Shown here: one piece after another, positions 1,625 through 12,262 of the stretch
Position numbering within the stretch: position 1 is the stretch's first letter
Layout: each line of letters opens with the position of its first letter
From: Propionibacteriales bacterium
Lineage (GTDB): Bacteria > Actinomycetota > Actinomycetes > Propionibacteriales > Propionibacteriaceae
Reading direction: 5' to 3'
Assembly: GCA_030453285.1 (NCBI GenBank)
Contig: JAKDKP010000013.1
Location: forward strand, 1 to 12,262
Length of the DNA stretch: 12,262 nucleotides
Notes under the pieces: generated by a model
What the model was told of the DNA's origin: nothing
Databases searched by the model: none
Seen by the model: only the letters and a program-made list of their open reading frames with translations
Translations under genes and position numbers: made by a program

Positions 1625-2869
1625 ATGAGACGACCGGGACGACCCGACAGGGCGGGGGGCGCCACATCGGAGGCGTCCGCCGACGGTCCGGCACGGTCAT
1701 GGTGGCGGCGGTTCGGGCGCTGGTCCGACGTGCTGGTGATCGTGCTGCTCCTCCCGTACGCCCTGGTCACCTTGCCGCTGTACCCCTTCCTCGATGATCC
1801 CTGGCGGGCAGGGTGGCTGTTCGTCATCGCCGTCGCGCTGGTCGGAACCTTTCTGCTGCGTCGGCTGCACCGCCCGGCAACGCTTGCGGTGATGCTGCTG
1901 CTGGCGAGCGGACAAATGCTGATCGGGCCGGAAGCGGCGTTCACCTTTGCCGACCTGGTCCTGTTGTTCGCGGTGCACGGCATCGCCAGTCGCCACCGGT
2001 GGCAGCACTCGATGTGGGCCGCTGTCGCGGTGCTGCTGTGGCTGGTGGTGGCCGCGGCACAACTGATGCAGCTCGGGTGGATCAACATCGGTCAGGCCGT
2101 TGCGTACTGCGCCCTCGTCGGATGGATGTGGACCTGGGGCACCCTGGTACGGATTCGTCGAGAGCACCTGGCGAGTGTGAGCGACCGGGCCGATCAGCTC
2201 GAAAGAGAGCGAGAGGCATTGGCCGAGGTGGCGGTCGCTCGCGAGCGGGCCAGGATCGCCCGTGAGATCCACGACATCGTCTCGCACGGGCTCGGCGTGG
2301 TGGTCGTGCTCTCCGAGGGCGCGGCCGCGCCGGTAGACACCGCCCCGGCGCGTGCGCGGCAGGCGATGCTGACCGTACGGGACACCGGCCGGACCGCGCT
2401 GGCCGAGATGCGGCACATGCTGGGGGTGCTCCGCGAGGACGAGCCCGGTTCGCAGGCGCCTCAGCCGGGGATCGCGCAACTCGACCGCCTGGTGGCCGAA
2501 TCCGCCTCGGCGGGCGTTCCGGTGACCTTGTCCGTACGGGGTGATCTGGCCGACGTGTCGACGGGGCAGCACCTGGCCGCGTACCGCATCGTCCAGGAGG
2601 CGCTGACCAACGTGCGTCGGCATGCCGAGTCCGTTGAGCGAGTCGAGGTGCGGGTGGATCATCGGGCAGGTCAGCTCGAAGTCCAGGTCACCAACGACGG
2701 ACGGGCCGGCGGCGGGTCGCGAGATGGTGTTGATCATGATCGAGGCGGTCATGGCCTGGTCGGGATGCGGGAACGGGTGAGTGCCTATGACGGCACACTC
2801 CGGGTGGGGCCGCGACCCGGTGGTGGGTACGAGGTGTCCGCGGTGTTGCCGACGTCAGGAGAACGATGA
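1625..2869 (+). CDS. Membrane sensor histidine kinase, NarL/DesK type
   Basis: This is a 414-aa two-component sensor kinase. Residues about 35-175 hold five or six membrane helices with almost no extracytoplasmic loop, suggesting that it senses within the membrane. A short coiled linker (about 180-205) leads into a HisKA_3 domain, RARIAREIHDIVSHGLGV, with phospho-acceptor His216. The HATPase domain shows the N-box QEALTNVRRHA (324-334) and the G-box GHGLVGMRERV (375-385). The protein autophosphorylates and transfers phosphate to the regulator encoded immediately downstream, whose ATG overlaps this stop codon (ATGA). That overlap and an AGGAG at 2857-2861 indicate translational coupling. The signal is unknown. 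Kinases of this architecture frequently respond to envelope stress or antibiotics and control ABC-2 efflux genes like those at 5548-7953, but no direct link is visible. Confidence 0.93.
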   Translation: MRRPGRPDRAGGATSEASADGPARSWWRRFGRWSDVLVIVLLLPYALVTLPLYPFLDDPWRAGWLFVIAVALVGTFLLRRLHRPATLAVMLLLASGQMLIGPEAAFTFADLVLLFAVHGIASRHRWQHSMWAAVAVLLWLVVAAAQLMQLGWINIGQAVAYCALVGWMWTWGTLVRIRREHLASVSDRADQLEREREALAEVAVARERARIAREIHDIVSHGLGVVVVLSEGAAAPVDTAPARARQAMLTVRDTGRTALAEMRHMLGVLREDEPGSQAPQPGIAQLDRLVAESASAGVPVTLSVRGDLADVSTGQHLAAYRIVQEALTNVRRHAESVERVEVRVDHRAGQLEVQVTNDGRAGGGSRDGVDHDRGGHGLVGMRERVSAYDGTLRVGPRPGGGYEVSAVLPTSGER

Positions 2870-3532
2870 CCATTCGGGTGGTGCTGGTCGATGACCAGGA
2901 GTTGGTACGGGCCGGGCTGTCGATGGTGCTCGCGACCCGGTCCGGCATCGAGGTGGTGGGGGAGGCCGACGACGGCGACACGGCCCTGGAGCTGCTGGCG
3001 AGGGTCGAGGCCGATGTCGTCCTGATGGACGTACGGATGCCGCGGATGAGTGGGGTGGAGGCGACGTGCCGACCGCCAGCCGGACGCGGTCGACACCAAG
3101 GTGTTGATCTTGACCACCTTCGATCTCGACGAATATGCCTACGAGGCGTTGCAGGCCGGGGCGAGTGGATTCCTGCTCAAGGACACCCCGATCGATGAAG
3201 TGGTTGCCGCCATCGGCCACGTGCATAGGGGAGACGCCGTCGTCGCACCAAGCACCACCCGCCGGCTGGTGGACCACTTCTCGTCGGGTCAACTGCGCTC
3301 TCTCGACAAGCCCGACGACGGGCATCTCGCCTCCCTGACGACTCGTGAGCGAGAGGTGCTGCAGTTGATGGCCCGCGGCTTGTCGAATGCCGAGATTGCC
3401 GCGGAGTTCGTCCTGGCCGAGGGGACGGTGAAGGTGCACGTGGGGCGCATCCTGGCCAAACTCAGTCTTCGCGATCGCGTACAAGCCGTTGTCCTGGCGC
3501 ACGAGGCCGGCCTGATCGACGGCAGGAGTTGA
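2866..3532 (+). pseudogene. NarL/FixJ-family response regulator, +1 frameshift in receiver domain
   Basis: Two adjoining reading frames encode one response regulator. The first runs from ATG 2866 and gives receiver residues 1-67, with the acidic pair Asp9/Asp10 and phospho-acceptor Asp55 (VVLMDVRMPRMSGVEAT). The frame then shifts between about 3067 and 3076. The second frame continues with KVLILTTFDLDEYAYEAL, FLLKD and a LuxR-type helix-turn-helix (LTTREREVLQLMARGLSNAEIA, then GTVKVHVGRILAKL). Ignoring one base gives 221 aa, the normal length, with the usual ten residues between GVEAT and KVLIL. No decay is visible elsewhere. Either this is a recent inactivating insertion or a sequencing or assembly error. 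If intact, the protein is the DNA-binding partner of the overlapping kinase. If real, the first frame ends at 3198 after a truncated receiver and the pair is disabled. Confidence 0.88.
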
Positions 3533-5547: not shown

Positions 5548-6453
5548 ATGTCGTACATCGTCACCACCGAAAACCTGACCAAGCGGTATCGCGACCGTAC
5601 CGTCGTCGACGGGGTGGACCTGCGCGTCCCCACCGGATGCGTGTACGGGTTCCTCGGCCCCAACGGTGCGGGCAAGTCGACGACCCTGAAGATGGTGTTG
5701 TCGCTGATCCGGCCCACCAGCGGCGCGGTGCAGGTGCTGGGCCAGCCGATGACCCGACAGACTCGGCGCGACCTGCTGGGGCGGATCGGGTCGCTGATCG
5801 AGGCGCCTCCGGGATACGCCCACCTGACGGGTGCGGAGAACATGCGGCTGGTTCAACGGCTGCTCGGACTTGAGGACGCCCAGGTCGAACACGCGGTCCG
5901 TACGGTGCGGATGAACGACCAGATGGACAAGAAGGTCGGCCACTACTCCCTGGGCATGAAACAGCGTCTGGGCATCGCGATGGCGCTGGCCCGGCGCCCC
6001 GAACTGCTGGTCCTCGACGAACCCAGCAACGGCCTCGACCCGGCCGGCATCGAGGAGATGCGCGAGCTGTTGCGCGGCCTGGCCGAGGACGGGGTCACGG
6101 TGATGGTGTCCAGTCACCTGCTCGGCGAGATCGACAAGACCGCCACTGTGCTCGGCATCCTGTCCGGTGGACGGATGATCTTCCAGGGCACGCGGGACGA
6201 GCTCTTTGCCGCCTCCACCCCTGACGTGCTGCTCGACTGCTCCGCACCCGAACGGGCACAGGCGGTGTTGTCGCGCATAGGGCCGGCCACCCTCGAAGGG
6301 TCGGCCGTTCGCCTCGCTGGTCCGGGCAATCGCGCCGTGGCTGGGGCCGTTGCCGCGCTCGTGGGTGACGGCATCGGCGTCCATGGCGTACGACGAGACG
6401 AGCAGACCCTTGAGGACGTCTTCGCCGAACTCACCAGTGGCGGTGGCCTGTGA
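5548..6453 (+). CDS. ABC transporter ATP-binding protein, BcrA/LanF-like
   Basis: The 301-aa ATPase has an intact catalytic set: Walker A GPNGAGKST (37-45), signature YSLGMKQRLGIAMAL (133-147), Walker B LLVLDEPSNGLDP (153-165) and switch His190 in SSHLL. The C-terminal 90 residues form the variable accessory domain of this subfamily. EAPPGYAHLTGAEN (85-98) is typical of ATPases of bacitracin-efflux (BcrA) and lantibiotic-immunity (LanF/MutF) systems. It energises the two ABC-2 permeases that follow, overlapping the first by GTGA. No strong ribosome binding site precedes ATG 5548. The start was chosen because MSYIVTTENLTKRY begins the conserved fold. The likely role is removal of membrane-active peptides or other amphipathic compounds, or resistance to them; the substrate is unknown. 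Confidence 0.92.
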   Translation: MSYIVTTENLTKRYRDRTVVDGVDLRVPTGCVYGFLGPNGAGKSTTLKMVLSLIRPTSGAVQVLGQPMTRQTRRDLLGRIGSLIEAPPGYAHLTGAENMRLVQRLLGLEDAQVEHAVRTVRMNDQMDKKVGHYSLGMKQRLGIAMALARRPELLVLDEPSNGLDPAGIEEMRELLRGLAEDGVTVMVSSHLLGEIDKTATVLGILSGGRMIFQGTRDELFAASTPDVLLDCSAPERAQAVLSRIGPATLEGSAVRLAGPGNRAVAGAVAALVGDGIGVHGVRRDEQTLEDVFAELTSGGGL

Positions 6454-7205
6454 CCTCCGCGACCGTGAAGGGATTCACCAACGAGTTCGCCAAGATGCGC
6501 CAGCTGGGCGTCGTGCCGGTGGGGTCGGCGCTGCTGCTGGGTGTACTGGGCCTGACCATGATCGCCGCCCTCGGCGATCCAAGCTTCGCCGAACCGAGGA
6601 CCCGGTCATGGCTGCCGATGCTCGGGGGCATGTCGATGGGGGTTGCGCTGATGTCGCCCTTGATGCTGGCTGTGCTGGCCAGCCGACAGGTCGACATCGA
6701 GCACCAGGGGCAGGGCTGGCTGCTCTCGGCCACCTCCGGGCTCACCCCCGGTCAGGTGTGCCGGGCCAAGTTGGTCGCGCTGGGCGCCGTGGTGGCCATG
6801 ATCACCATCGCGACCAATGTGATCATCCTGGGCGTCGGACTGGCGCTCGGCGTGCCGGCCCCTCCACCGGTCGGTCACTGGCTGGCGGCTGTCAGCGGTG
6901 CCCTGCTGGTGAGCCTGGTCCTGCTCGCTCTGCACGTGGTGCTGGCGGCGAAGGTCGAGAACCAGTTGGTCGGGCTGGGAATCGGAGTGCTCGGCACCCT
7001 GTTCGCCGCTTTTGCCTCTGGCTTGCCGACCTGGCTGGCGCATCTGGCGCCCTGGGGTTACTACGCCCTGACCCGAGCCGCGGAGTACCAGGGTGAATCG
7101 GTCGTGCTGCTGCTCCCCTCCTGGCCGAGCCTGCTCGGCCTCGCCGTCGTCGGTGGTGTCGTGTTCGCACTTGTCACCGGTCGCCTCGATCGTCAGGAGG
7201 TCTGA
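6450..7205 (+). CDS. ABC-2 type permease, MutE/EpiE-like
   Basis: This 251-aa membrane protein starts at GTG 6450 inside the stop codon of the ATPase gene, so translation is coupled. About six membrane helices can be seen, after a short cytoplasmic start FTNEFAKMRQLG that matches the coupling-helix region of lantibiotic-immunity permeases (usually E-x2-K-x-R). SRQVDIEHQGQGWLLSATSG (about 76-95) corresponds to the conserved cytoplasmic loop 'E...G.W..l...p' of this ABC-2 group. It pairs with the next permease to form a heterodimeric membrane domain. The absence of a lanthipeptide precursor or synthetase in view means a true immunity role is unproven; general peptide or antibiotic resistance fits as well. 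Confidence 0.85.
   Translation: MTSATVKGFTNEFAKMRQLGVVPVGSALLLGVLGLTMIAALGDPSFAEPRTRSWLPMLGGMSMGVALMSPLMLAVLASRQVDIEHQGQGWLLSATSGLTPGQVCRAKLVALGAVVAMITIATNVIILGVGLALGVPAPPPVGHWLAAVSGALLVSLVLLALHVVLAAKVENQLVGLGIGVLGTLFAAFASGLPTWLAHLAPWGYYALTRAAEYQGESVVLLLPSWPSLLGLAVVGGVVFALVTGRLDRQEV
7195..7200 (+). promoter_or_regulatory. Shine-Dalgarno AGGAGG that sets the second permease start
   Basis: A perfect AGGAGG lies inside the last codons of the preceding gene, six bases before ATG 7207. The frame is open upstream to 7093, but that part is the preceding gene read out of frame. The ribosome binding site and the conserved start LLAELIKLKRS place the real start at 7207. Confidence 0.85.
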
Positions 7206-7206
7206 G

Positions 7207-7953
7207 ATGAATGCCCTGTTGGCCGAGCTGATCAAGCTCAAGCGCTCGCTGAGTTGGCCCGTCGTTGTCCTGCTCCCCTTGGCCTTGGTCGTCTCCGCGG
7301 TGGTGAACACCCTCGTGTCGGGCCAGCCCCTGGAAGACGGCTGGGCAACGCTGTGGCTGCGCTCCCTGGTGTTCGGTGGACTCTTCCCGCTGGCCCTCGG
7401 CGTCGGCACGCTCGCTTCCCTGGTCTGGCGGGTTGAACACCGCGGCAACAACTGGAACGTCTTGATGAGTGGGCCGACGCCGACCTGGCGGATCGTCGTG
7501 GCCAAGGGCATCGTCGTGGCCGGGTTGTCGGCGGCCATGCAGGTGCTGTTGCACCTTGCCGTCCTGGTGATGGGGGAGGTGCTGGGACTCCCGGGAGGCA
7601 TGCCGGTGGCCTACCTCGGCATCAGCGCGTTGATCATGATCGCGTGCGTCCCGCTCGCCGTCCTGCAGTCCGGGTTGTCGATGGTGCTCCGCTCCTTCGC
7701 CGCCCCGATTGCGGTGGCACTCGTCGGGTCGGGGATCTCGATCATGCTGTTGATGGCCGGTCTCGACGCGGCGCTGGTGTCCCCGTACGGGCTGTTCTCC
7801 CGCACCACTCAACTCGGCACCGGCACCTTCCTCGACGACGGCTCGACCTCCGCCATCGACGTGGTCATGATCCTGTCGCTGTCGGTCGGCCTGACCGCCG
7901 GGCTGCTCGCGGCCACCACCTGGTTCATCAACCGGCGCGACACCCATGCCTGA
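7207..7953 (+). CDS. ABC-2 type permease, MutG/EpiG-like
   Basis: This 248-aa protein opens with LLAELIKLKRSLSWPVVVLLPLA, the typical beginning of lantibiotic-immunity type ABC-2 permeases, and has about six membrane helices. VWRVEHRGNNWNVLMSGPTP (about 74-93) is the conserved cytoplasmic loop, parallel to that of the preceding subunit. A single base separates the two genes, and a strong ribosome binding site ensures expression. It probably forms the membrane channel with the 6450-7205 product and is driven by the 5548-6453 ATPase. The protein ends in a basic cytoplasmic tail (FINRRDTHA). The substrate is unknown. Confidence 0.87.
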   Translation: MNALLAELIKLKRSLSWPVVVLLPLALVVSAVVNTLVSGQPLEDGWATLWLRSLVFGGLFPLALGVGTLASLVWRVEHRGNNWNVLMSGPTPTWRIVVAKGIVVAGLSAAMQVLLHLAVLVMGEVLGLPGGMPVAYLGISALIMIACVPLAVLQSGLSMVLRSFAAPIAVALVGSGISIMLLMAGLDAALVSPYGLFSRTTQLGTGTFLDDGSTSAIDVVMILSLSVGLTAGLLAATTWFINRRDTHA

Positions 7954-8489: not shown

Positions 8490-10376
8490 GTGCGCGACTT
8501 TCCACCCGTGGTGACGGCCTACACCACCGACACCTCGACCGACACGGTCGCCGACGTCGAGCGTCCCGACACCCGCACCCCGACTCGGTTCCTGCTGTGG
8601 ATGTTGAAGCAGCAGTACGACGTGATCGCGGTGTCGGTCGTCCTCGGTCTGCTGTGGATCGTGCCGTCGATGATCGGGCCGTGGGTGACGGGCAAGGTGG
8701 TCGACGAGGGCATCCTGGCCGGTGACAGCGCGGCGGTGTGGAAGTGGTCGGCCGTCCTGCTCGCGGTTGCCGTGATTGGCGCTTCCTGTGGCGTCCTGCT
8801 GCACACCTTTGCCGTACGAGGTTGGCTGCTGTCGTTGTATCGCACCTCGATGATGGTCACCCGCAAGACCACCCAGATGGGTCACGTACTGCCCCGCCGG
8901 AGCCCAACCGGTGAGGTGCTGAGCGTCTCGTCGAGCGACTCCGACCAGTTCGGCGCGCTGAGTGAGGTCGCCGGGCGAGCGATCGGCGCCCTGGTCGGGT
9001 TCATCGTGGTGGCCGCCATCATCCTGTCCACCTCGCCGATGCTCGGTCTGGTCGTGCTGATCGGGGCGCCGGTGATGCTGGTCGCCGCCCTGCCGCTACT
9101 CCGTCCCCTGCACCGCACCCAAGGGGTCGAACGGACCCGGACCTCCGAACTCACCTCCCGCGCCACCGACATCGTTGCCGGGCTGCGCATCCTGCGCGGG
9201 ATCGGTGGAGAGCGGACCTTCGGTCGCAACTATGCCGAGCAGTCGCAGCGCGCCAAGAAGGCCGGCGTGAACGTCGGGGTGTGGAACGCCGCCACCGAGT
9301 CGGCCAGCGTCATCTTCTCCGGGCTGTTCCTGGTGCTGCTCACCTGGCTCGGCGCCGGTGAAGTGGTCGCCGGTCGCCTCACCGTCGGCCAGTTGATCAG
9401 CTTCTTCGGCTATGCGTTGTTCATGACCACCCCGCTGCGCACCTTCTTCTACTTTGCCCAGCAATGGACCCGGGCCCTGGTGGCGGCCGGCAAGGCGATC
9501 GCGGTGTTCGAGCAGACACCGCCGTGGAACCGCCCGGAGCGGGCCGTCGACCCCGATCCGACCGGTGAGTTGGTCGACGAGGCCTCCGGCACGGTGATTC
9601 GCCCCGGTGAGTTGACCGTGGTGGTCAGCGCCCTGCCCGACGACTCCGCCGCCCTGGCCGACCGGTTGGGTCGCTACCTGCCCGCCTCCGACACCCCAGT
9701 CAGCGAGGAGCTGGCCGAAGGCACCAAGGGACGGCAGGCTCGGGCCGAGCGGGCCGAGCGGCGCCGCCGCCGCGCCGAATTGGCCGAGCGCGACGCCGTA
9801 CGAGCAGGGCAGGCGTGGGGTGTGACATTGGCCGGCACCGACCTCTCGGCGTTCGAGCTTGACAGGCTGCGGGAGGTGATCATGGTCAATGAGAGCAACG
9901 CGGCGGTGTTCTCCGGCACGCTGCAGGAGGCGATCGATCCGCACAGCCGGCTGGATCGCCAGCAGGCCGAGGCTGCGATCACCGTTGCCTCCGCCGAGGA
10001 TGTGTACGAAGCGCTCCCCGGAGGTTGGCAGGGCCGGATCGATGAGCGTGGACGTGGTCTGTCGGGTGGACAGCGGCAGCGGCTGGTGTTGGCCCGTGCG
10101 TTGGCCATCGACCCGGACATCCTGATCATGGTCGAGCCCACCTCGGCGGTGGATGCGCACACCGAGGCACGGATCGCCGAGCGGCTCAGTGCCCATCGAC
10201 GTGGTCGTACGACGGTGGTCACCTCGGTCTCCCCGTTGTTGCTGCACCATGCCGATCGGGTGGTGCTGCTGGTCGACGGCCAGGCCGTGGCTGCCGGCAC
10301 CCACGACGAACTTGTGGCCGGGGTGCCCGCCTATGCCGCGGTCGTTTCGCGGGACCTGGATGAGGTGTCGAGCTGA
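8490..10376 (+). CDS. ABC exporter half-transporter with degenerate nucleotide-binding domain
   Basis: The 628-aa subunit has a six-helix exporter membrane domain (about 40-340) followed by an unusual ATPase domain. The strand that normally carries the A-loop tyrosine is missing, and the P-loop is replaced: IRPGELTVVVSALPDDSAAL (370-389) has no GxxGxGKST and no lysine. An Arg/Ala-rich insertion (about 412-438) precedes the Q-loop region, where Glu468 stands near the usual Gln. The signature LSGGQRQRLVLARAL (524-538) is perfect. Walker B reads ILIMVEP (544-550), with Val548 for Asp but the catalytic-type Glu549 kept, and the switch histidine is absent (TSVSP). The subunit cannot bind ATP in its own P-loop but can supply its signature to the partner encoded next, with which it overlaps (TGATG). 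The open frame is intact, so it is not a decaying gene. The substrate is unknown. Confidence 0.9.
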   Translation: MRDFPPVVTAYTTDTSTDTVADVERPDTRTPTRFLLWMLKQQYDVIAVSVVLGLLWIVPSMIGPWVTGKVVDEGILAGDSAAVWKWSAVLLAVAVIGASCGVLLHTFAVRGWLLSLYRTSMMVTRKTTQMGHVLPRRSPTGEVLSVSSSDSDQFGALSEVAGRAIGALVGFIVVAAIILSTSPMLGLVVLIGAPVMLVAALPLLRPLHRTQGVERTRTSELTSRATDIVAGLRILRGIGGERTFGRNYAEQSQRAKKAGVNVGVWNAATESASVIFSGLFLVLLTWLGAGEVVAGRLTVGQLISFFGYALFMTTPLRTFFYFAQQWTRALVAAGKAIAVFEQTPPWNRPERAVDPDPTGELVDEASGTVIRPGELTVVVSALPDDSAALADRLGRYLPASDTPVSEELAEGTKGRQARAERAERRRRRAELAERDAVRAGQAWGVTLAGTDLSAFELDRLREVIMVNESNAAVFSGTLQEAIDPHSRLDRQQAEAAITVASAEDVYEALPGGWQGRIDERGRGLSGGQRQRLVLARALAIDPDILIMVEPTSAVDAHTEARIAERLSAHRRGRTTVVTSVSPLLLHHADRVVLLVDGQAVAAGTHDELVAGVPAYAAVVSRDLDEVSS

Positions 10377-12262
10377 TGAGCGCCTGGACCACTGATTCGG
10401 CCGCGACCTGGCAGACCGAGGACACCCGGGAACCGTCCGTGCCCGACGTATTGCGGGTGCCCACCACCCACAACATCGGGGAACGACTGGGGGCCTGGCG
10501 GCGTCGGCACCTGTTCCGCGCCGGTCGCGCGCAACGCAACTTCGAAGCCTCCCGGCATCCCGAGCGGGCCCTGCCGGTGTCGGGCCGTGACGAGGTGGTG
10601 GAGTTCGTCCGTCGGCTGTTCGGCCACCGCCGGTTGTTCATCGTGGCGATGATCGTCGCCAACGCACTGACCGCCCTGGTCGCCGTGCTCGTTCCGCAGG
10701 CCCTCGGCGACATCGTCGACCAGGCGTCGGGCAGCGGATCGCCGATGGACCGGATCAACCAGCTCTCGCTGGGGGTCGCCGGACTGGTGGTACTACAGGC
10801 CTTCTTCACCTTCTGGGCCCGCTTCACCGCCGCGGTGTTCGGTCAGGACGTGCTGGCCGAGGCGCGCGAGCACGTCGTCGACACCGTGCTGGCTCTGCCA
10901 TTGGGACGCGTCGAACAGGCCAGCACCGGGGACCTGGTCACTCGGATCACCCGCGACGTCGGGGCGATGAGCGAGGCCGTACGACAGGGCCTGCCGCAGT
11001 TCTTCATCTCCGGCGCGACAGTGCTGTTCACCGTTGTCGCGATGGTGATCAACTCCCCGCTGCTGTCGGTGCCGATGCTGGTGCTGGTGGCGCTGTCGTT
11101 GATCCAGGTGCGGCGCTACCTGCAACGATCGCCGGCCGGCTACGTGATGGAAGGGGCCACCTACTCCGACATCGGCACCACTCTCACCGAGACCGTCGAA
11201 GGCGCCCGTACGGTCGAGGCACTGGGTCTGCAGAAGGCGCGCATCGAACGAGGCGACGATGACATCGCCCGATCGTCGCAGGCCGAGCGTTACACGATGT
11301 CGCTGCGCAACATGATGTTCATCGTGATGGACATCTGCTGCTCGGCGCCGCGCGCGTTCACCATCGCCCTGGGCGCGGTCGCCTACGTCAACGGGTGGGC
11401 GACGCTGGGTCAGATCACCGCTGCCATGCTCTACATCGAAACGCTGATCACCCCGATCGACTGGATGATCCAGACCCTTGACCGGCTGCAGGTCGGCGTG
11501 GCGTCGATCTCCCGACTGCTCGGCATTGCTGGCGTTCCGGCCGATCGTGAGCCCGGCACGGACCGGCCTCGAGGGTCGCATCTGACCGGGCGTGATCTGC
11601 GGTTCGCCTATCGCGAAGGGCATGACGTCCTGCACGGTGTTGATCTTGACCTGCGACCGGGGGAGCGACTTGCTGTTGTCGGCCCCAGCGGATCGGGCAA
11701 GTCGACGCTGGGCAGGCTGCTGTCGGGGATCAATGGGCCACGCACCGGATCGGTCACCGTCGGCGAGGTCGCTCTGGTGAAGCTGCCGTTGGATGTCCTA
11801 CGCACCCAGGTGGCCCTGGTCACCCAGGAACATCACGTCTTCGTTGGTTCGGTGCGCGACAACATCGTGTTGGCCCGGGAGGACTCCGACGACGAGACCG
11901 TACGGCAAGCGCTCGCAGCGGTGGATGCGCTCGGGTGGGTTGACCGGCTGCCGCAGGGACTGGACACCCTGCTCGGCACCGGACACCACGGCCTCACGCC
12001 GGCCCAGGCGCAGCAGATCGCGTTGGCTCGGCTAGTGGTTGCCGATCCGCACACCCTCGTCCTCGATGAGGCGACGTCCCTGATCGACCCGCACACCGCG
12101 CGACACATGGAGGGGTCGATGTCGGCGCTGCTGACCGGCCGTACGGTCGTGGCCATCGCGCACCGGTTGCACACCGCCCACGATGCGGATCGGATCGCCG
12201 TCGTGATCGACGGCCGGATCGTCGAACTCGGCAGCCACGACGAGCTCGTCGCTCGCGGCGGT
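10376..12262 (+). CDS. ABC exporter half-transporter, partner subunit (cut by window edge)
   Basis: 629 codons are visible with no stop; the gene runs off the window, probably within a few tens of residues of its end. An Arg-rich cytoplasmic leader (about 1-75) precedes a six-helix exporter domain (about 80-370). The ATPase domain has Walker A GPSGSGKST (436-444), Q-loop VTQEHHVF, Walker B LVLDEATSLIDP (561-572, Asp564 and Glu565) and the switch AHRL with His596. The signature motif is LTPAQAQQ (540-547) instead of LSGGQ. This defect is complementary to that of the upstream subunit, so only one composite ATP site should work: this protein's Walker motifs against the other's LSGGQ. ATG 10376 overlaps the preceding stop codon, indicating coupled translation and a heterodimer. 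The substrate is unknown. Confidence 0.92.
   Translation, partial: MSAWTTDSAATWQTEDTREPSVPDVLRVPTTHNIGERLGAWRRRHLFRAGRAQRNFEASRHPERALPVSGRDEVVEFVRRLFGHRRLFIVAMIVANALTALVAVLVPQALGDIVDQASGSGSPMDRINQLSLGVAGLVVLQAFFTFWARFTAAVFGQDVLAEAREHVVDTVLALPLGRVEQASTGDLVTRITRDVGAMSEAVRQGLPQFFISGATVLFTVVAMVINSPLLSVPMLVLVALSLIQVRRYLQRSPAGYVMEGATYSDIGTTLTETVEGARTVEALGLQKARIERGDDDIARSSQAERYTMSLRNMMFIVMDICCSAPRAFTIALGAVAYVNGWATLGQITAAMLYIETLITPIDWMIQTLDRLQVGVASISRLLGIAGVPADREPGTDRPRGSHLTGRDLRFAYREGHDVLHGVDLDLRPGERLAVVGPSGSGKSTLGRLLSGINGPRTGSVTVGEVALVKLPLDVLRTQVALVTQEHHVFVGSVRDNIVLAREDSDDETVRQALAAVDALGWVDRLPQGLDTLLGTGHHGLTPAQAQQIALARLVVADPHTLVLDEATSLIDPHTARHMEGSMSALLTGRTVVAIAHRLHTAHDADRIAVVIDGRIVELGSHDELVARGG

Follow-up and report, generated by a model that had tools for sequence, protein, structure and literature searches.

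Two adjacent genes encoding the halves of an ATP-binding cassette (ABC) exporter lie at the end of a 12,262-nucleotide stretch of DNA from a Propionibacteriales bacterium (family Propionibacteriaceae, assembly GCA_030453285.1, contig JAKDKP010000013.1, forward strand), which in its full length is referred to here as the window. The open reading frames (ORFs) of subunit 1 and subunit 2 share an ATGA overlap, and the 3' end of the subunit 2 gene is missing because the contig (C379, 12262 bases) stops there. Both subunits contain ABC_membrane and ABC_tran domains that pass the Pfam cut-offs, and thus consist of a transmembrane domain (TMD) of the PF00664 type fused to an ABC nucleotide-binding domain (NBD). 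In subunit 1 the ABC_tran profile aligned only from position 42 of 137, which is past the P-loop.

Motifs of the exporter pair

The following features were assigned to the pair; the source of each assignment is given in brackets.

8490..10376, + strand: subunit 1, half-size ABC exporter (TMD and NBD) without a P-loop, 628 amino acids (ORF, Pfam, AlphaFold2)
9627..9653, + strand: subunit 1, SALPDDSAA, residues 380-388, at the place of the P-loop GPSGSGKST (alignment)
9729..9809, + strand: subunit 1, Arg/Glu-rich helical insert of the window's own subfamily, residues 414-440 (alignment; helix in the model)
9885..9899, + strand: subunit 1, VNESN, Q-loop Gln replaced by Glu (alignment, motif extraction)
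10059..10082, + strand: subunit 1, LSGGQRQR, residues 524-531, intact signature predicted to serve the live site (motifs)
10131..10154, + strand: subunit 1, VEPTSAVD, Walker B Asp lost, catalytic Glu and D-loop Asp kept (motifs)
10221..10235, + strand: subunit 1, TSVSP replacing the switch His motif IAHRL, His to Val (motifs)
10376..12262, + strand: subunit 2, half-size ABC exporter with intact Walker A and B, Q-loop and His and a degenerate signature (ORF, Pfam, motifs)
11591..11614, + strand: subunit 2, RDLRFAYR, A-loop with Tyr (motifs)
11681..11707, + strand: subunit 2, GPSGSGKST, intact Walker A (motifs)
11819..11833, + strand: subunit 2, VTQEH, intact Q-loop (motifs)
11993..12016, + strand: subunit 2, LTPAQAQQ, degenerate signature predicted to face the dead site (motifs)
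12062..12088, + strand: subunit 2, LDEATSLID, intact Walker B, catalytic Glu and D-loop (motifs)
12155..12169, + strand: subunit 2, IAHRL, intact switch His (motifs)

Walker A, which is expected in each NBD of ABC exporter half-transporters, is present in subunit 2 and absent from subunit 1. The segment VVGPSGSGKST of subunit 2 aligns with VVSALPDDSAA of subunit 1, and on a longer stretch subunit 1 bears LTVVVSALPDDSAALADRLGRYL at the position of subunit 2 LAVVGPSGSGKSTLGRLLSGI. Likewise MVEPTSAVD of subunit 1 corresponds to LDEATSLID of subunit 2, the Walker B Asp being replaced by Val. The original prediction, which was made from the letters of this DNA, held that subunit 1 lacks the A-loop strand, Walker A, the Walker B Asp and the switch His while its LSGGQ is exact, and that subunit 2 combines intact Walker A, Walker B and His with an LTPAQ-type signature. 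The reading of subunit 2 agrees with its sequence, and so does that of subunit 1 as far as Walker A, the Walker B Asp, the switch His, LSGGQ and the A-loop Tyr are concerned, the segment with this Tyr being absent from subunit 1 in the alignment. The first beta strands of the NBD are however short (361-363, 368-370) and not wholly absent in the AlphaFold2 model, and the loss of the Q-loop Gln had been overlooked. This model of subunit 1 as a monomer shows the full half-transporter fold with a predicted local distance difference test (pLDDT) score of 88.9 and a predicted template modelling (pTM) score of 0.82, and TM287 (6quz_A) and MsRv1273c (9iqg_A) are among the top-ranked structures that match it. 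In model and alignment taken together, a helix of subunit 1 (383-393) occupies the place of the former P-loop and opens with a Pro and then acidic residues.

Conservation and ancestry of the motif partition

Protein searches (E <= 0.001, about 8000 candidates each) returned 2306 relatives for subunit 1 and 7453 for subunit 2, and the best 120 of each were examined. All 120 of these subunit-1 rows, which include the window, have LSGGQ, together with VEPTSAVD in 111 and VDPTSAVD in nine cases, and G.GK[ST] occurs nowhere in any of them. The GKST P-loop, LDEATSLID and AHRL are found in the window and in each of the 120 best subunit-2 rows, G.GK[ST] being present in 120/120 and SGG[QE].Q after residue 300 in 0/120. 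Whole loci were then compared as 123 merged pairs, of which 121 are complete and comprise the window, the TetAB pair of Corynebacterium striatum plasmid pTP10 and 119 fetched loci, with motifs extracted from stop-to-stop ORFs. Two duplicates (L120, L164) and two loci whose partner is cut by the contig end (L043, L161) were dropped from this set, and L190, L194 and L195 were fetched later and stand outside it. The first subunits of the complete pairs have xSGG[QE] in 121/121 and G.GK[ST] in 0/121; their Q-loop position holds D or E in 111 and Gln in none, the switch His is at its place in none, and the Walker B Asp survives in ten. All 121 partners have GxGK[ST], the Walker B DE, the Gln and the His, and their signatures contain SGG in no case and end in QQ in 119. 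Judged by these motifs, the losses of P-loop, Gln and His are universal in the 121-pair sample and that of the Walker B Asp is not. The original prediction had placed all intact recognition motifs in one composite site, formed between the Walker motifs of one subunit and the signature of the other, and all losses in the second site, and this arrangement recurs in 121/121 pairs. Both sets of losses co-occur in every one of these pairs, among which neither a subunit 1 with a P-loop nor a partner with SGG was found. By this evidence the motif partition is not due to chance.

The place of the lost P-loop is itself conserved. In 116/121 first subunits at least one of two core P-loop positions is acidic, and among 85 aligned first subunits (rows hand-picked; L135 omitted for a stop in the matched range) P383 is conserved in 79, with position 384 acidic in 73 rows and position 385 in 68. 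The residues A390, D391, R392, L393, G394, S581 and P582 are each found in at least 78 of the 85 rows, with R392 in 84, G394 in 83 and both S581 and P582 in all of them. In five of the 121 pairs (L053, L065, L066, L068 and TetB; a deep group) the partner D-loop is AEAG instead of SxxD, as it also is in L190 and L195, which are otherwise pairs of the usual type with the signatures LTPTQVQQ and LDPARAQQ. This changed D-loop may be the one that faces the dead site and has lost its role.

The family is widespread. Of 296 genomes drawn from the phylum, 41 have a match at E <= 1e-30 (four candidates scored per genome), and by motif a P-loop-less first subunit is present in at least 21 of the 296, the window's own genome included, and in at least 10 actinobacterial families. 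The inspected matches of the other 20 genomes keep a GK[ST] P-loop, with one altered (L184, GPTASGKTS). Subunit 1 matches at E <= 1e-60 were obtained in 110/196 genomes of the window's order (six candidates scored per genome). Among 80 named loci from GTDB genomes the first subunit is P-loop-less in 80/80 and the partner of the expected kind in 79/79, one contig ending early. The patterns with which these 80 loci were chosen included [VI][LM]V[ED]PTSAV, so that the Walker B Val was partly selected for; the draws of 296 and 196 genomes are free of such selection. The partner adjoins the first subunit in 123/127 loci, the four partnerless ones being two at contig ends (L067, L081), one broken over two frames (L062) and one truncated (L168). 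L168 (3970-5028, - strand), from a genome of the same family, is a frame of 353 amino acids that has neither NBD motifs nor a partner. The window's genome contains a further pair, L068 (8142-11698 on contig C295; partner D-loop AEAG), the first subunit of which is P-loop-less, and a third P-loop-less half-transporter, L067 (2938-4311 on contig C182), which is cut by the contig end. One member (L127) lies on a contig labelled as a Spirochaetaceae metagenome-assembled genome; this may be an actinobacterial contig that was placed in the wrong bin.

In a tree of 68 half-transporters, with 26 P-loop-less subunits and 26 partners, each of the two groups forms one clade with a support of 1.0 on the full alignment. 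Both clades are recovered with the same support from 331 transmembrane columns alone, which excludes that they are grouped by their shared motif loss. The two subtrees mirror each other with r 0.963 (25 pairs), a value that includes shared species history. Given the single clades and mirrored subtrees, the joint loss is most simply explained by a single ancient event that was retained, and not by many independent losses. Ratios of nonsynonymous to synonymous substitution (dN/dS) were obtained from 14 comparisons over 23 loci, which are non-independent as some loci were reused. They amount to 0.10-0.32 for the dead NBD, 0.06-0.32 for the dead-site segments and 0.03-0.16 for the partner NBD, and in 8/14 comparisons the TMD of the same subunit is more tightly constrained than the dead NBD. 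These ratios indicate that the dead NBD is under purifying selection, weaker than that on the partner NBD, and is not decaying.

Charge inversion and comparison with known exporters

The formal charge of each site was summed over 18 positions, namely nine of the P-loop, the Q position and eight of the partner signature. Across the 121 pairs the dead site has a mean charge of -2.9 (range -5 to 0) and the live site one of +2.9 (2 or 3), the dead site being the lower in every pair. As a control, 20 regions were fetched from the same phylum and yielded 13 complete ordinary pairs, in which the site of lower charge ranges from 0 to +2. G.GK[ST] is present in 25 of the 26 control halves, and the exception, L184, retains the GK. 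Walker B reads DD in one half of 12/13 control pairs and DE in both halves of the remaining one. An acid at the Q position is also seen in 3/13 control pairs and in further ordinary degenerate halves, which means that the Q-loop change is not special to the P-loop-less clade. As far as can be read from the sequences, what is new relative to the usual asymmetric exporters is the complete loss of the P-loop together with the charge inversion, and the dead site of the clade appears as nearly a mirror image of the usual degenerate site, with the binding loop lost and the catalytic Glu mostly kept.

TM287/288, MsRv1273c/72c, BmrCD and TmrAB share the fold of the window pair and likewise consist of two half-transporters with one complete and one degenerate site. 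Like the TM287/288 type, the window pair is encoded by two adjacent half-transporter genes and its deviations are confined to one composite site, which the cited passage describes as the normal rule for asymmetric exporters (PMC7756269). Degenerate sites of the TM287/288 type keep their P-loop, unlike subunit 1. The catalytic Glu, often an Asp in ordinary degenerate sites according to the same source (PMC7756269), is mostly kept and not replaced in the clade, which is a further departure from this type. The yeast ABCG transporter Pdr5 is like the window pair in that nearly every motif of its degenerate site is altered. The rest of its P-loop is still present, and Pdr5-type PDR transporters are full-size ABCG proteins in which the NBD precedes the TMD; the window pair, composed of two half-size proteins with the TMD before the NBD, is not of this type. 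The alterations listed for Pdr5 are Walker A K to C, Walker B E to N, H to Y and the signature LNVEQ (PMC7756269). The original prediction pointed out that known asymmetric exporters still bind ATP at the degenerate site, and the passages available agree: ATP is bound there in MsRv1273c/72c (PMC12038006) and stays bound even in Pdr5, whose PDR subfamily is termed the most extreme case (PMC8421411).

The prediction had also called the family probably conserved but little studied. Conserved it is, in 121/121 pairs, but the second part is only half correct, as TetAB of C. striatum pTP10 belongs to the same clades. TetA has no G....GK[ST] and an intact LSGGQRQR, like subunit 1, and TetB has GTSGAGKS, LILDEATAEAG, VAHRL and the non-canonical signature IPPEVEQQ, like subunit 2. 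Both fall inside the two clades beside the L068 pair (support 0.72 and 0.88; deep groups 0.98), where they form a far branch: the P-loop region of TetA is deleted in the alignment, its C-terminus is short and its Walker B reads LDDP. The TetAB pair is reportedly functional in C. glutamicum. Since TetAB belongs to the clade, drug efflux is a plausible function of its members. A review describes TetAB, in the part available, as an ABC efflux pump for tetracyclines and beta-lactams (PMC8304765). OmrDE of Ornithinimicrobium cerasi was considered as a member and rejected, as the account consulted has Walker A conserved and the Glu replaced by Asp, which makes it an ordinary asymmetric exporter (PMC11109279). 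It had come into consideration because the genus Ornithinimicrobium has the P-loop-less family (L076, L079, L083 and L087). RamA/RamB and StrV/StrW, for which the literature was consulted (PMC6804068 among it), may be further named members. No description of P-loop-less exporters was recognised in the open-licence PMC literature, as represented by titles and the starts of abstracts. The clade goes beyond the asymmetric exporters found in that literature, in the available parts of which the PDR subfamily is the most extreme.

Clustering of neighbouring ORFs at 81 loci, in 11 of which a crude gene caller missed subunit 1, gave no cluster present in more than 15 of the 81 other than the ABC genes and frames overlying them. 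Pfam models on hand-picked flanking ORFs, some of which are perhaps spurious, placed a single family at no more than 4/30 and 2/25. In these neighbourhood scans no widely shared gene was found that could serve as a clue to the substrate or as a partner. Within the window, an ABC ATPase and two ABC-2 permeases (5548-7953, + strand) lie just upstream of the exporter pair and resemble lantibiotic-protection transporters (galliderm_ABC and MutE/MutG models, below cut-offs). Further upstream, a LuxR-type response regulator (2866-3532, + strand), next to a histidine kinase (1625-2869), is divided between two frames, one with the receiver and one with the rest, which is a frameshift or an assembly error in a fragmented genome. 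The minus strand encodes a protein with a helix-turn-helix after a partial WhiB domain (52-849) and the bacterial proteasome activator BPA (926-1522).

Proposed transport cycle and its alternatives

The pair is probably a heterodimeric exporter of the TM287/288 architecture that has one complete composite site, the other being a nucleotide-excluding contact, and that runs on a one-ATP cycle. The live site would be composed of the A-loop, Walker A and B, Q-loop and His of subunit 2 together with LSGGQ and the D-loop of subunit 1. The dead site would hold no ATP, because a Pro-acidic helix start replaces its P-loop and the partner signature lacks SGG and the arginines. On that side the two halves would be held together by nucleotide-free protein contacts. 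A single ATP bound and hydrolysed at the live site would close and then reopen the NBDs and thereby move the substrate outwards, a direction suggested by the exporter fold, with a stoichiometry of one ATP per cycle. More tentatively, and with the balance slightly against it, the whole clade may have replaced the second ATP by protein, the charge inversion of the dead site keeping the NBDs docked with no nucleotide between them, while each cycle of the pump uses exactly one ATP. P-glycoprotein with a single mutated Walker A retains about 15% of its transport according to the cited passage (PMC4846820), which implies that transport with one live site is possible in principle.

An alternative is that the dead site is an ordinary degenerate one, in which ATP is still bound as a glue as in MRP1, Pdr5 and MsRv1273c/72c. 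The asymmetric exporters in the passages cited above do hold ATP at this site, and subunit 1 retains Glu549 and the D-loop; G.GK[ST], the Q-position Gln and the partner SGG are nevertheless gone from all 121 pairs, at least one of two core P-loop positions is acidic in 116 of them, the mean charge is negative and a helix begins at P383 in the model, all of which makes bound ATP improbable. It is far less credible still that subunit 1 is decaying or dispensable and that subunit 2 acts as a homodimer. Most Walker-side motifs of subunit 1 have indeed been lost, but such a homodimer would carry two degenerate signatures, whereas the signature of subunit 1 is intact and that of the partner degenerate in 121/121 pairs. 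Purifying selection on the dead NBD in 14/14 comparisons, the partner beside the first subunit in 123/127 loci (with contig ends explaining two of the four exceptions) and the subunit 1 matches in 110 of the 196 genomes of the order all speak against it as well. The dead site could also have acquired a new role and bind another ligand or a regulatory protein, with a surface formed by the conserved ADRLG helix and the Arg/Glu-rich one. Conservation of the seven residues from A390 to G394 and at S581 and P582 would fit such a role, as would the insert helix in the window's subfamily. An NBD-NBD interface would explain that conservation equally well, and the neighbourhood scans gave no gene shared widely enough to encode the partner. 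A new role is rather unlikely.

Several points weigh against the proposed one-ATP exporter. The treatment of one half-site as a nucleotide-free contact is an inferred claim about a heterodimer, of which subunit 1 was modelled as a monomer; the AlphaFold2 model of subunit 2 (26 rows) was poor (pLDDT 61.5) and was set aside. On the sequences, the joint loss is best read as a single origin and counts as one event and not as a statistical correlation across pairs. The catalytic Glu is present in 113/121 first subunits, the window included, and is an Asp in the other eight, which is not what simple decay of the dead site would lead one to expect. In 14/14 comparisons the constraint on the dead NBD is weaker than that on the partner NBD, as the homodimer alternative would also have it. 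First subunits without a partner occur in L062, L168 and L194 although the contig continues; L194 (3104-4816, - strand) is an open P-loop-less frame of 571 amino acids with a Walker B of LVLHNPTTAVD (HN), and no recognisable partner was found in the 3.1 kb downstream of it. The gene table of pTP10 has tetA only as a predicted resistance gene and tetB also as a coding sequence. In TetAB(60), which has Walker A in both halves, resistance was lost when that stretch was deleted in one half or the other, as reported in the cited passage (PMC5138185), and the loss of one P-loop is thus not neutral without compensation.

The function of the degenerate site in asymmetric ABC exporters is an open question and its functional advantages are unclear in the cited account (PMC7756269). 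The P-loop-less clade lost the P-loop of that site in nature yet persisted, and it offers a natural experiment to be set against TM287/288 or MsRv1273c/72c with regard to stoichiometry, NBD opening and coupling. TetA-like halves, which seem broken to a motif search, may not be. If the more tentative reading with docked, charge-inverted NBDs is true, both binding and hydrolysis at the second site would be dispensable for active export once a replacement interface had evolved.

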